Positions 30,498 to 34,516 of a stretch of DNA of 64,000 nt are shown here, one piece after another. The stretch spans positions 62,001 through 126,000 of the forward strand of contig NZ_JACHXP010000008.1 in assembly GCF_014192215.1 (NCBI RefSeq), read 5' to 3'. The stretch is from Halomonas cerina. Lineage in GTDB: Bacteria; Pseudomonadota; Gammaproteobacteria; Pseudomonadales; Halomonadaceae. Position numbers and translations under genes: made by a program. Position 1 is the stretch's first letter. Every line of letters starts with the position of its first letter. Under the pieces are notes generated by a model, which did not search any database, was not told the origin of the DNA, and saw nothing but the letters and a program-made list of their open reading frames with translations.

Positions 30498-30580
30498 ATC
30501 ACCTTTCCCGGGTATCGGGAACGGTTGCCGATGGCGATCGATTGACAGCCTCCGCCCACCCGCCTAGGCTGAACGCTCTC

Positions 30581-30672
30581 CTGGGGGAGCCCTTGCGGGC
30601 TGAGACTCCGTGGCCGTTTGCCGCGGTAACCCTTTGAACCTGATCCGGGTCATGCCGGCGAAGGGAAGGATG
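30581..30672 (+). ncRNA. TPP riboswitch (THI element)
   Basis: The aptamer is recognised by GGGGGAGCCC...GGGCTGAGACTCC, then ACCCTTTGAACCTGATCCGGGTCATGCCGGCGAAGGG split into its conserved blocks CTGAGA, CTTTGAACCTGATC, GGGT and GCGAAGGGA. Immediately after the aptamer GTCCTCTT (30684-30691) is complementary to AAGAGGAC (30756-30763), the ribosome-binding site of the downstream symporter gene, so ligand binding probably controls translation. It sits on the plus strand ahead of the SSS transporter. Confidence 0.95.
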
Positions 30673-30683
30673 CACCGCACCAC

Positions 30684-30763
30684 GTCCTCTTCTTCCTCGC
30701 TCGCCGCCCGCGGCATGCCATGACCCAGCCCCGGGCCTGCCGACACGCCAAGGTAAAGAGGAC
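30684..30763 (+). promoter_or_regulatory. Riboswitch expression platform: anti-SD/SD pair
   Basis: GTCCTCTT at 30684-30691 can form eight continuous pairs with AAGAGGAC at 30756-30763, which contains the AGAGGA ribosome-binding site nine bases before the ATG at 30772. No T-rich terminator hairpin is visible between aptamer and gene, so translational sequestration is the simplest reading. Confidence 0.55.
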
Positions 30764-30771
30764 CACCCGTC

Positions 30772-32217
30772 ATGATGCTCGACCCTACCTGGACAGCCCT
30801 GTGGCTGCTGCTGTGCGCTGCCGTCTTCGCCGTGCCCGGCCTGCTCTACGCACGCCGCCAGCGCGACGACCTCGACGACTACATCGCGGCCCGCAACAGC
30901 CAGAATACCCGGGCCACCGTGCTGACCCTGGTGGCCACCACCCTGGGCACTTGGATCCTGTTCGGCCCCGCCCAGGCCGCCACCTGGGGCGGCTTGGCCG
31001 CGGTGCTGGGCTATGCCCTGGGCTCGATGGCGCCGCGCCTGGTGATGATTCCCCTGGGCCGGCGCATGCGCGAGCTGATCCCTGAGGGTCACGGCCTGAC
31101 CGAGTTCGTCATCCATCGCTACGGGCGCCCCATGTACGCCTTCACCCTGGCAATCATGCTGTTCTACCTGTTCATCTCGCTGGCCGCCGGCCTCACCGCC
31201 ATCGCTCACATGGTGACCCTGCTGGCACCGATCCCCCTGTGGCTGACCGCCAGCGTGGTCATGGTGGCGACCCTGCTCTACACCTTCTACGGCGGCCTGC
31301 GCGCCTCCATCTACACCGACAAGGTGCAGATGGCGGTGATCCTGCCGCTGCTGGGGCTGTTGCTGGTGTTCGGGTGGCAGGCCGCCGGCGGCATCGCCCC
31401 GACCCTGGCGGGGCTCGAGCAGCGCGCGCCCCAGCTGCTCCAGCTGAGCGACCCCGGCGGTCTGCGTGCCGGGCTGACCTTCTTCATCGCCGTGGTGCTC
31501 ACCGGGCTCTTCTATCAGGGCACCTGGCAGCGCATCTACGCCGCCCGGGACGCACGGGTGCTGCGTCGAGGCTTCTGGATCAGTGGCCTGTGCAATCTGC
31601 CGGTGGTGGTGTTGATGGGCCTGTTCGGCCTGGCCTTCGTGGGCCTGGGGCTGGAAGGCGACGGCTCGGTGGCGCTGTTCAGCGTGCTGCTGGCCGAGGT
31701 ACCGCTATGGTTCGCCCTGGCGCTGATCCCTCTGGGCCTGGCGCTGGTGATGAGCAGCGCCGACACCACCATCAGCGCCACCTCCAGCATCATCGCCGTG
31801 GACATGGGCCGGCTGCTGCCCGGGGCCAGTGACGCCACCCTGATGCGCCTGGCGCGCTGGCTGATCGTGGTCGCCGCGGTGCCGGTGACCTGGGTGGCCG
31901 CCCAGGGCTACAGCGTGCTCTACCTGTTCCTGCTGGCTGACCTGCTGTGCTCGGCGGCCGCCTTCCCGGTGTTCTTCGGCCTCTTCCATCGCGGCTACGA
32001 CGGCCGCAACGCCGTGATCAGCACCGCCTGCGGCCTGGTAACCGGCCTGGCCATGTTCCCCGCCCCGGGGGGCGGCACCGCCACCCTGCTGGAATCCTTC
32101 CTGCTCGCCGCCCTGGTGCCCGTCGGCGTCTCGCTCGCGTTGATGCGCCTGCTGCCGACACGCCCGGACTACGACTTCACCACCCTGAGCACCCTGGTGC
32201 GCCGCTTCGAGAACTAA
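30772..32217 (+). CDS. Sodium:solute symporter (SSS), TPP-riboswitch controlled
   Basis: 481 residues with about 13 hydrophobic segments typical of the SSS family; the PanF/PutP-like stretch FYGGLRASIYTDKVQM and the sodium-site region TWQRIYAAR are present, as is MSSADTTISATSSIIAVD near residue 325. The TPP riboswitch in front implies that it imports a thiamine precursor, a thiamine degradation product or thiamine itself, as proposed for the riboswitch-linked ThiV-type symporters. The exact ligand cannot be read from sequence. It converges with the flavin monooxygenase gene, 12 bases apart. Confidence 0.88.
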   Translation: MMLDPTWTALWLLLCAAVFAVPGLLYARRQRDDLDDYIAARNSQNTRATVLTLVATTLGTWILFGPAQAATWGGLAAVLGYALGSMAPRLVMIPLGRRMRELIPEGHGLTEFVIHRYGRPMYAFTLAIMLFYLFISLAAGLTAIAHMVTLLAPIPLWLTASVVMVATLLYTFYGGLRASIYTDKVQMAVILPLLGLLLVFGWQAAGGIAPTLAGLEQRAPQLLQLSDPGGLRAGLTFFIAVVLTGLFYQGTWQRIYAARDARVLRRGFWISGLCNLPVVVLMGLFGLAFVGLGLEGDGSVALFSVLLAEVPLWFALALIPLGLALVMSSADTTISATSSIIAVDMGRLLPGASDATLMRLARWLIVVAAVPVTWVAAQGYSVLYLFLLADLLCSAAAFPVFFGLFHRGYDGRNAVISTACGLVTGLAMFPAPGGGTATLLESFLLAALVPVGVSLALMRLLPTRPDYDFTTLSTLVRRFEN

Positions 32218-32229
32218 GCCGGCGACGGC

Positions 32230-33525
32230 TCAGGCCGCCGGGCGCGCCAGCCCCAGGTGCTCGCGCAGGGTGTGGCCGACGTAGTCGCGGCGGAACAGCC
32301 CGCGGGCCTGCAACACCGGCACCACCTGGTCGACGAAGTCCTCGATGCTGCCCGGCAGCGACGGCGGCATCAGGTTGAAGCCGTCGGCCCCGCCCTGCTC
32401 TACCCAGTGCTGCATCTCGTCGGCGACTTGCTCCGGTGTACCCACCAGGGTGCAGTGGCCGCCCCCCGCGGCCAGTCGCCCCAGCAGCTGGCGCAGCGTC
32501 GGCTTCTCGCTTTCGATGATGCGCAGAATGGTGGCATAGCGCCCCTTGGGGCCGCTGAAGGCCGAAAGCGGCGGCAGCGACGGTACCGGTGCGTCCAGCG
32601 CCCAGCCACGGCAGTCCTGACCGATGAACTGGCCGAGCTGGCGCAACGAATCCTCGGTAGGCAGCAGCTCGTCGAGCTCGCGCTGGCGCGCCCTGGCCTC
32701 GGCCTCGGTAGATGCCACATAGGTCACCAGCCCCGGCATGATGCTCACCGGCGGACGTCCCGCCGCCTTCACGCGTGCCTGGATGTCACGGTAGTAGGCC
32801 TGGGCCGAGGGCAGGTCGTAGGCCACGGCGTAGATCGCCTCGGCGTAGCGGGCGGCGAGATCGCGCCCCGGCTCGGAGGCGCCGGCCTGGAACAGCACCG
32901 GATGCCCTTGGGGCGGGCGTGGCACGGTCAGCGGGCCATCCACCAGGAAGTGCTCGCCATGATGCTGGATGGGCCGCACCTTGTGCGGATCGGCAAACTG
33001 GCCGTGACGATCGAGGCGCAGCGCATCGTCGGCCCAGGAATCCCACAGCGCCAGCACCGTCTCGGCGAACTCCTCGGCGCGGGCATAGCGCACCTCATGG
33101 GGCGGCATGGCCTCCCAGCCGTGATTGCGCGCCTCGCTGTCGAACATCGAGGTCACCAGGTTCCAGCCCAGGCGCCCGCCAGAGATATGATCCAGCGAGG
33201 CCAGCATGCGCGCCGCATGGAAGGGCGTGAAGAAGGTGCTGGAGACGGTGGAAATCAGACCGATCCGCTCGGTGGCCCGCGCCATGGCAGACAGGGCCGT
33301 CAGCGGCTCCAGGAACCACTGCGGACCGCCGGCCACATTGCTTGCGGCATGGCCATCGGCGAAGAACACCGCGTCCAACTTGCCACGCTCGGCGGTGCGC
33401 GCCAGCGCCTCATAGTAGCGGATATCGCCCAGGCGCTCGACGGCCGACTCGGGGTGTCGCCAGGCGGCCTTGTGGTGCCCGCAGCCCATGATGAACAGGT
33501 TGAGATGCATGGAGGGGGCCGCCAT
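32230..33525 (-). CDS. LLM-class flavin-dependent monooxygenase, NtaA/DszA-like
   Basis: 431 residues of the bacterial-luciferase fold, NtaA/SnaA/DszA subgroup: MHLNLFIMGCGHHKAAWRH, FFADGHAASN, ERIGLISTVSSTFF, GRLGWNLVTS and PVLFQAGASEPGRDLAARYAEAIY. Members use FMNH2 supplied by a separate reductase to oxidise sulfur- or nitrogen-containing molecules. The start ATG overlaps the SDR stop (TGATG), so the two are translationally coupled, and the pair is under a TPP riboswitch. A role in oxidising or opening a thiazole or pyrimidine compound taken up by the neighbouring symporter is inference. Confidence 0.88.
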   Translation of the reverse strand: MAAPSMHLNLFIMGCGHHKAAWRHPESAVERLGDIRYYEALARTAERGKLDAVFFADGHAASNVAGGPQWFLEPLTALSAMARATERIGLISTVSSTFFTPFHAARMLASLDHISGGRLGWNLVTSMFDSEARNHGWEAMPPHEVRYARAEEFAETVLALWDSWADDALRLDRHGQFADPHKVRPIQHHGEHFLVDGPLTVPRPPQGHPVLFQAGASEPGRDLAARYAEAIYAVAYDLPSAQAYYRDIQARVKAAGRPPVSIMPGLVTYVASTEAEARARQRELDELLPTEDSLRQLGQFIGQDCRGWALDAPVPSLPPLSAFSGPKGRYATILRIIESEKPTLRQLLGRLAAGGGHCTLVGTPEQVADEMQHWVEQGGADGFNLMPPSLPGSIEDFVDQVVPVLQARGLFRRDYVGHTLREHLGLARPAA

Positions 33526-34307
33526 CAGTCTTTCACCAGGCCACCGTCGACCACTAGGTTCTGACCGGTGATGGCCCGTCCCCAGGGCGAGGCGAATAGC
33601 AAGGCGGCGTCGGCGAACTCCTCGGGGGTGGTGACGCGACGCAGCGGCGTGCTGGCAGCGATCAGCTCGAAGACCGCCTCGGGCGTGGCGGCGGAGGCAT
33701 CGGTGGTGCGCAACAGCCCGCCGGAGATCATGTTGACGGTGATGCCATCGGGCCCCAGGTCGTGGGCGAGCGTACGGGTCAGTGACAGCAGCGCCGCCTT
33801 GGCGGCGGTGTAGTCGTGATAGGGCACCACCGGGTTCTGGAAGAGGTTGGTACCGATATTGACGATGCGCCCGACGCCACGCTCGCGCATTCCCGGCAGT
33901 GCCGCCTGGACAGTGTTCAGCGCGCCGCGAGCCACACCCTGCAGCTGATGGTCGAGGTGCTCCCAGGTCAGGGTGTCCGGCCCGGGGCGGGCGTCGCCGT
34001 TGAACGAGAAGTCGGGCAGGGCATTGTTGATCAGCGTGGTCACCGGTTCGCCGAAGTGCACGCGGGTGGCGGCGAACATGGCCCTCACCGCCTCAGGATC
34101 GCGGACGTCGGCCTGTACGGCCAAGGCCCGCTCGGGGGCCTCGGCCGCCAGGGCCTCGGCCGCCTCAGCGCTATTCAGGTAATTGACGACGACACGCGCA
34201 CCCTGGGCCAGGAAGGCGCGGGCCAGGCAGGCGCCGAGGCCGCGGCTGGCGCCGGTGACGAGAACGAGCTGCTCGGAGAGCGGTAGTGCACTGGGAGAAG
34301 CGGTCAT
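33525..34307 (-). CDS. Short-chain dehydrogenase/reductase, TPP-riboswitch controlled
   Basis: 260 residues of classical SDR: TGASRGLG (NAD(P) binding), NNA at about 92, YHDYTAAKAA with the Tyr and Lys of the active site, and IVNMISGG-like NMISGGLLRT. The position of the catalytic Ser, 13 residues before the Tyr, holds a Thr (NIGTNL), a conservative but unusual change. A D-rich insert DFSFNGDARPGPDT follows the NNA motif. Its mRNA begins with a TPP riboswitch. It is similar in setting to the thiamine-regulated oxidoreductases described in comparative work on THI elements, whose function is unsettled. Confidence 0.88.
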   Translation of the reverse strand: MTASPSALPLSEQLVLVTGASRGLGACLARAFLAQGARVVVNYLNSAEAAEALAAEAPERALAVQADVRDPEAVRAMFAATRVHFGEPVTTLINNALPDFSFNGDARPGPDTLTWEHLDHQLQGVARGALNTVQAALPGMRERGVGRIVNIGTNLFQNPVVPYHDYTAAKAALLSLTRTLAHDLGPDGITVNMISGGLLRTTDASAATPEAVFELIAASTPLRRVTTPEEFADAALLFASPWGRAITGQNLVVDGGLVKD

Positions 34308-34360
34308 GGGACGTCCCCTATGAAGGCGAAGGACGCACGCCGAGCAGGCCGCTGCGCTGA

Positions 34361-34437
34361 CATCCCTTCGCCGGTATGAACTGGATCAGGTTCAACGGGT
34401 ATCATCTCAGCCCCGGCCTGCGGCCGGGACACCCCGT
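34361..34437 (-). ncRNA. TPP riboswitch (THI element)
   Basis: On the minus strand the sequence runs GGGGTGTCCCGG, a GC stem, GGGCTGAGATGATACCCG, TTGAACCTGATCCAGTTC and ATACCGGCGAAGGGATG, which contains all the conserved TPP aptamer blocks. It lies 53 bases upstream of the SDR start. GCGTCC in the linker can pair with GGAC of the ribosome-binding site, and the site itself lies in the palindrome GGGACGTCCC, so translational control is plausible. Confidence 0.95.
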
Positions 34438-34516
34438 GTCATGCGCCTCCGACCATAGCCCATCGCCTTCCGGCCAACAAGCACCCACCGCCAGCGCCAC
34501 GACCACGGCACCGCTT

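Follow-up and report, generated by a model that had tools for sequence, protein, structure and literature searches.

What a symporter and two oxidoreductases do between two riboswitch aptamers for thiamine pyrophosphate (TPP) is the question raised by a locus of Halomonas cerina, located in a stretch of 64,000 nucleotides on contig NZ_JACHXP010000008.1 (positions 62,001 to 126,000), which we refer to as the window. The symporter belongs to the sodium:solute symporter (SSS) family, and the enzymes are a short-chain dehydrogenase/reductase (SDR) and a luciferase-like monooxygenase (LLM). The best reading of the data is that the three genes act as a single module, repressed by TPP and able to stand in for ThiC, the synthase of 4-amino-5-hydroxymethyl-2-methylpyrimidine (HMP) phosphate. 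The module is common where ThiC is missing and therefore probably supplies the HMP half of vitamin B1. The comparisons of sequences and gene neighbourhoods given below strongly support a link of all three genes to thiamine. The locus contains the following features:

30573 to 30683, plus strand: TPP riboswitch aptamer before the SSS gene (RF00059, 68.1 bits, E = 3e-11)
30772 to 32217, plus strand: SSS sodium:solute symporter, ThiV/SSSP-like by context (PF00474, 68.7 bits against a cut-off of 22.8)
32230 to 33525, minus strand: LLM-class monooxygenase dependent on flavin mononucleotide (FMN), NtaA/DmoA family (TIGR03860, 536.5 bits against a cut-off of 279.7)
33525 to 34307, minus strand: SDR oxidoreductase, first gene of the enzyme operon (NF006393, PRK08642, 431.4 bits against a cut-off of 292)
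34346 to 34446, minus strand: TPP riboswitch aptamer before the SDR and LLM genes (RF00059, 66.0 bits, E = 9.6e-11)

The whole window was scanned with Rfam at the gathering threshold (54.3 bits for RF00059), and the TPP family, with these two matches, was the sole family to reach that level. A preliminary description of the DNA had proposed two flanking aptamers with limits of 30581 and 34437, just inside the 30573 to 34446 found here. It had also proposed two convergent units, one with the symporter and one with the SDR and the flavin monooxygenase, in agreement with the strands of the genes: the stop codons of the SSS and LLM genes are 12 nucleotides apart and the two units are therefore convergent, while the SDR and LLM genes are taken as one operon because the stop of the former and the start of the latter share one base. 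The symporter scored 83.5 bits under the narrower model TIGR00813 and thus misses the cut-off of 184. In a family search, the ThiC domain, PF01964, matched none of the three proteins, and the module is not a ThiC. The H. cerina genome contains five TPP-like aptamers, namely the two at the module, those preceding thiC (75.1 bits) and tenA (51.9 bits, below the gathering score) and a fifth in the vicinity of thiE (64.4 bits). The weak tenA aptamer and the strong thiC aptamer are located on the same strand about 1 kb apart (L036, 3779-4904; G000:C4:222283-223398), and the genome carries two full-length thiG genes (G000:C5:197043-197783 and G000:C4:228003-228743).

An analysis of the neighbourhoods of the three genes and their aptamers, as suggested in the preliminary description, revealed a conserved linkage. 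For the Halomonadaceae we used an even draw of 151 genomes from a larger group, that of H. cerina included. The LLM was present at 71-100% identity in 12 of these genomes, the next best match being 45%. In the 11 neighbourhoods that were fetched, the LLM gene was adjoined by the SDR gene in all 11 and by the SSS gene in 10. An orthologue of the symporter (at least 70% identity) was present in 11 of the 12 LLM carriers, whereas the other 139 Halomonadaceae had none (best match 41%). Rfam identified both aptamers in 9 of the 10 neighbourhoods scanned, the exception being L049, and a purpose-built covariance model identified both in the eleventh, L047. No TPP aptamer was found at nine loci of distant LLMs (at most 45% identity, L050-L058). 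One Halomonadaceae copy (L040, 8235-9458) has a gene that by eye encodes an IS110-type transposase between the LLM and SSS genes.

The linkage extends far beyond the family. We scanned genome contigs with the LLM alignment and examined the best 80 of 343 relatives (L059-L138, 74-85% identical), using tblastn for the genes and, for the aptamers, a covariance model trained on 22 aptamers (module-type loci contributed 20, thiC and thiE of the window's genome one each). This set includes Halomonas, Marinobacter, Oceanimonas, Oceanisphaera, Achromobacter and other Alcaligenaceae, Methylobacillus, Nocardiopsis, Glaciibacter and Cryobacterium. At least one TPP aptamer was present at 79 of these best 80 loci, and the remaining locus (L121) ends at a contig end. 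An adjacent SDR gene was found in 69 loci, an aptamer before the enzyme operon in 63 and an SSS gene in 66, 65 of which were preceded by an aptamer. The aptamer counts for the Halomonadaceae, for the 80 loci and for Marinobacter come from sets that overlap in part. The SSS gene was divergent from the enzymes in 56 of the 66 loci and convergent in 10, the minority form to which the window's layout belongs, and the linkage thus survives rearrangement. A check at the Rfam gathering level of 10 loci from alpha-, beta- and gammaproteobacteria and actinobacteria placed an aptamer before the enzymes in 9; at the tenth, L083, the aptamer was before the SSS gene alone.

The evidence that ties the module to one particular step is the loss of ThiC. 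The test for DISPLACEMENT of ThiC covered 60 carriers, comprising the 12 Halomonadaceae and the genomes of 48 of the 80 loci, which were chosen by hand to spread the sample, before any result was available; a ThiC hit that was broken or partial was scored as ThiC present. ThiC (PF01964) was missing in 20 of the 60 carriers. Within the Halomonadaceae it was missing in 8 of 12 carriers as compared to 9 of 139 non-carriers (one-sided Fisher test, p = 1.7e-6), and within the three genera that hold both carriers and non-carriers we observed 7 ThiC-less carriers where 2.4 were expected (p = 7e-4). In Marinobacter (120 genomes of the genus to which Marinobacter sp. ELB17 belongs), ThiC was missing in 9 of 13 carriers as compared to 3 of 107 non-carriers (p = 1.4e-8). 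Incomplete assembly is an unlikely cause of the missing ThiC in the Halomonadaceae, since the 8 ThiC-less carriers are 99-100% complete and G013 and G146 are single contigs. The Marinobacter set comes without completeness figures, and its three ThiC-less non-carriers, 2.1, 3.2 and 2.2 Mb in size, may be partial.

A full-length ThiG was present in 59 of the 60 carriers (G197 gave a weak partial hit only), and ThiE was present in all 28 genomes tested, 27 of which are ThiC-less carriers. As far as tested, the pathways of the ThiC-less carriers are short of a pyrimidine source alone. Since ThiG and ThiE are kept while ThiC goes, the loss points to the pyrimidine side of the pathway and makes thiazole derivatives unlikely substrates. 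The salvage route put forward in the preliminary description is hence retained in part: the thiamine link of all three genes is borne out by the conserved aptamers, the linkage and the co-occurrence with ThiC loss, while its suggestion of thiazole substrates is disfavoured. From these genome comparisons we consider it likely that the module supplies the pyrimidine side of thiamine, and we lean towards a salvage route in which the SDR and the LLM would act on an imported pyrimidine.

The surroundings of the operon and the choice of importer are informative in this respect. The loci of Glaciibacter (L096) and Cryobacterium (L128), both from ThiC-less genomes, consist of a TPP aptamer, the SDR and LLM genes and then thiE (on the other strand), thiO, thiG and thiF, and then a YkoE-type gene (PF09819) preceded by another TPP aptamer; the families of the cluster were tested on L096, to which L128 was matched at 92-98%. 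In Marinobacter, thiG directly follows the LLM gene in 5 of 13 carriers, and aptamers precede both units in all 13. None of the ten actinobacterial loci among the best 80 contained an SSS gene, and PF09819 was present in 7 of 7 actinobacterial carrier genomes tested as compared to 0 of 4 proteobacteria tested, and one importer class may thus replace the other.

With regard to the enzymes, the best-scoring solved chains for the LLM were YtnJ/MoxC, nitrilotriacetate monooxygenase and DszA, and its relatives of known structure also include the EDTA and dimethyl-sulfide monooxygenases and riboflavin lyase. Oxidative cleavage of C-N or C-S bonds is carried out by such relatives, riboflavin lyase among them. 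As in the NtaA/EmoA/DszA/YtnJ/RcaE branch of these monooxygenases, the LLM is a member of TIGR03860 above the cut-off, but the module LLMs form a clade of their own. In a quick tree of 105 LLMs, 91 sequences of at least 60% identity (the window's LLM and 90 relatives, that of L049 included) were located on one side of a branch with a long stem and a Shimodaira-Hasegawa-like approximate likelihood ratio (SH-aLRT) support of 100; the 14 sequences outside are long-branched and their internal order is not trusted. Eleven residues, T100 and H135 among them, are conserved in at least 98% of the 91 clade sequences and in none of the 14 outside, and these are places to look for substrate specificity. 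In the SDR, the catalytic Tyr and Lys (Y166 and K170) are invariant in 11 aligned sequences, and T153 stands at what we take to be the position of the usual serine of the catalytic motif. Two sources of substrate guesses were discarded: an AlphaFold model of the LLM from an 11-row alignment was too poor to be used (mean pLDDT, the predicted local distance difference test, of 58.3), and the solved relatives of the SDR were generic, the best being 1-phenylethanol dehydrogenase at 112.9 bits, and indicated no substrate.

The course of events that we propose is as follows. At low TPP, the symporter, or the YkoE-type system in actinobacteria, would import an HMP-like vitamer with a substituent on the C5 methylene. 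The LLM, using reduced FMN from a general flavin reductase, would oxidise this methylene and free the substituent, yielding a 5-formyl pyrimidine that the SDR would reduce to HMP, which would then enter the pathway via ThiD and ThiE. This specific chemistry, with oxidation at C5 by the LLM and reduction to HMP by the SDR, is a tentative proposal that we hold to be less likely than not.

A set of observations weighs against a TPP-repressed module that stands in for ThiC. ThiC is kept in 40 of the 60 carriers, the window's genome among them, and the module is therefore a supplementary route in H. cerina. The ThiC statistics treat genomes as independent, with no correction for species phylogeny, and nine Halomonadaceae that lack ThiC also lack the module. 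Of the 20 ThiC-less carriers, 13 have TenA, which is known to salvage the pyrimidine, and some of these may therefore not need another enzyme. The SDR-LLM operon is devoid of a flavin reductase gene, G192 (Corticibacter) has neither an SSS gene in the locus nor PF09819, and L049 has the SDR and LLM genes with neither SSS gene nor TPP aptamer. The LLM gene lacks an adjacent SDR gene in 11 of the best 80 loci, and in four Achromobacter genomes the approximately 3.8-kb stretches around the displaced SDR gene contained no TPP aptamer.

Some of these cases were followed further. The Achromobacter loci were set aside as a case against the enzyme pair, since all four genomes checked that have no SDR gene beside the LLM gene encode an SDR of 72-75% identity elsewhere. 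At L049 (5865-11970), the SDR and LLM genes are located about 2.4 kb from genes that by eye look like pdxT and pdxS, with a gene for a GntR/MocR-like regulator beyond; a link to vitamin B6 would rest on this single case and on genes recognised by eye. The nine ThiC-less, module-less Halomonadaceae (G039, G052, G111, G136, G143, G051, G102, G107 and G128) all have TenA. TenA was rejected as a discriminating feature, being present in these nine, in the 13 carriers mentioned above and in most of the ThiC-bearing carriers tested.

Other functions for the enzymes were considered. One is that the SDR-LLM pair makes HMP de novo in an oxygen-dependent, ThiC-independent manner while the symporter would do no more than bring in HMP or a precursor. 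The strong displacement of ThiC seen in separate tests of two clades (Halomonadaceae and Marinobacter), the absence of TenA, the known route for 4-amino-5-aminomethyl-2-methylpyrimidine (AmMP), from 7 of the 20 ThiC-less carriers and the position of the pair inside a biosynthetic cluster in Glaciibacter and Cryobacterium would all agree with this, but we know of no precedent for such a synthesis in the LLM family and hold it to be improbable. The tie between transporter and enzymes in 66 of the 80 loci is a better fit to salvage, and the Marinobacter isolate A2R20, which may or may not carry the module, is described in PMC12448291 as a B1 auxotroph fed by HMP, with half-saturation at 9.6 nM B1 and 3.5 nM HMP. 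We give similarly little credence to the broader version, in which the pair would be an aerobic, non-homologous and horizontally spread replacement of ThiC that forms HMP either de novo or from an abundant metabolite other than a thiamine breakdown product.

Alternatively, the symporter alone could serve thiamine supply while the enzymes perform another task on which TPP reports, such as the detoxification of antivitamins or the use of an organosulfur source. Thiamine antivitamins are released in nature according to PMC12345177, and the LLM family includes the sulfur-compound enzymes YtnJ, DszA and dimethyl-sulfide monooxygenase. Yet this explanation is an unlikely one, given that the enzymes and the symporter co-occur almost strictly in the Halomonadaceae, that the SDR-LLM operon has an aptamer of its own even where the SSS gene is absent and that it shares operons or clusters with thiG. 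The LLM might instead hydroxylate the methylene bridge of thiamine or an analogue, releasing the thiazole and a formylpyrimidine that the SDR would convert to HMP. Its relatives do cut C-N bonds, riboflavin lyase being one of them, but intact thiamine, once imported, does not have to be cut, and the retention of ThiG implies that thiazole is not in short supply, which makes such a cleavage very improbable.

The leaders of the two units offer a possible mechanism of control. Three stretches in the window are of relevance here:

30684 to 30691, plus strand: possible anti-Shine-Dalgarno stretch, GTCCTCTT, complementary to 30756-30763 over all 8 bp (equalled by 1 of 100 shuffles)
30756 to 30763, plus strand: ribosome-binding site region of the SSS gene, AAGAGGAC, 8 nucleotides before the ATG at 30772, pairing with 30684-30691
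34326 to 34333, minus strand: possible anti-aptamer stretch, TCCTTCGC as read on that strand, pairing with GCGAAGGG of the aptamer (equalled by 1 of 100 shuffles)

The 8-bp pairing of the SSS leader was also present in its minimum-energy fold, as was the anti-aptamer pairing of the SDR leader, in which GCGAAGGG sits in the 3' strand of the aptamer. The folding energies of the two whole leaders were not unusual (z = -0.76 and -0.56, respectively). Pairings were then scored in 75 distinct leaders of each kind and counted where at most 5 of 100 shuffles were as good. The anti-aptamer pairing was counted in 45 of 75 SDR leaders and 13 of 75 SSS leaders, and the anti-Shine-Dalgarno pairing in 18 of 75 and 17 of 75, respectively; for the window's own SDR leader, the latter was equalled by 23 of 100 shuffles. 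The anti-aptamer pairing of the SDR leaders was thus the only frequent type. A translational switch in the leaders is plausible, and TPP would probably lower translation, as judged from these pairings, which are suggestive only as a sign of TPP binding and gene control.

The distribution of the module probably reflects horizontal transfer, which is suggested by the actinobacterial LLMs that fall among the proteobacterial ones in the tree. The LLM matched 153 plasmid records, five of them at >60%, and four regions were opened. An aptamer followed by the SDR and LLM genes was seen on large plasmids of Pseudochrobactrum algeriensis (L154) and Rhodococcus sp. DMU1 (L155), which are possible vehicles of transfer. 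No aptamer was found in the opened plasmid regions of Streptomyces (L156) and Mesorhizobium (L157), where the LLM identity was 52-55%. On the Mesorhizobium plasmid pMLa (L157, 3243-7326), the gene for the 52% LLM relative comes right after an ABC transporter operon, with no TPP aptamer, and represents a related but separate lineage. The module is widespread and is apparently a mobile and TPP-controlled unit.

The symporter half of the module has published counterparts. SSS transporters under TPP control had been attributed to earlier comparative work in the preliminary description and are indeed in print: PMC11452348 and PMC4260697 treat TPP-controlled ThiV/SSSP as putative HMP/thiamine transporters. 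In the former, ThiV is presented as the symporter that likely takes up HMP in SAR11; the latter states, with reference to Rodionov et al., that SSSP bears the name ThiV in Methylobacillus flagellatus. In PMC10881298, thiV is entered as a pyrimidine/B1 transporter. The symporter studied here resembles ThiV/SSSP of SAR11, Marinobacter and Methylobacillus in family, in the upstream TPP aptamer, in the collocation with thiG in several Marinobacters and in the occurrence in ThiC-less genomes, a likeness of family and context, but here it goes together with an SDR-LLM pair. The main text of PMC4260697 makes no use of the words oxidoreductase, dehydrogenase and monooxygenase.

The proposed role, salvage of the thiamine pyrimidine, is shared with TenA/YlmB, which salvage AmMP and its N-formyl derivative (FAMP) to HMP from thiamine degradation products according to PMC10470507, where the question is also raised which transporters import FAMP and AmMP. 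However, TenA and YlmB are hydrolytic and of other families, and TenA occurs both with and without the module. The module would fill the same place in the pathway as ThiC, the supply of the pyrimidine, but its enzymes belong to PF00296 and the SDR family rather than PF01964, it combines two enzymes with an importer and it probably performs salvage, not synthesis. Our literature search returned nothing on a TPP-controlled LLM or SDR pair, nor on the displacement of ThiC by SDR-LLM. Rodionov et al. (2002, JBC) reportedly listed two genes under THI elements, thiV in Methylobacillus and oarX, which is reductase-like, and the link between TPP and an SDR may already be in print there. The symporter half is thus already known, while its partnership with an SDR-LLM pair that displaces ThiC appears to be new within the literature searched.

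Many bacteria lack thiC alone, and for these the module names an importer and two TPP-controlled enzymes that are tied to ThiC loss in two clades. The question of their pyrimidine source thereby becomes testable in culturable Halomonas and Marinobacter. If the enzymes do contribute to the making of HMP, predictions of B1 auxotrophy from genomes that consider thiC and no other gene would have to be corrected.

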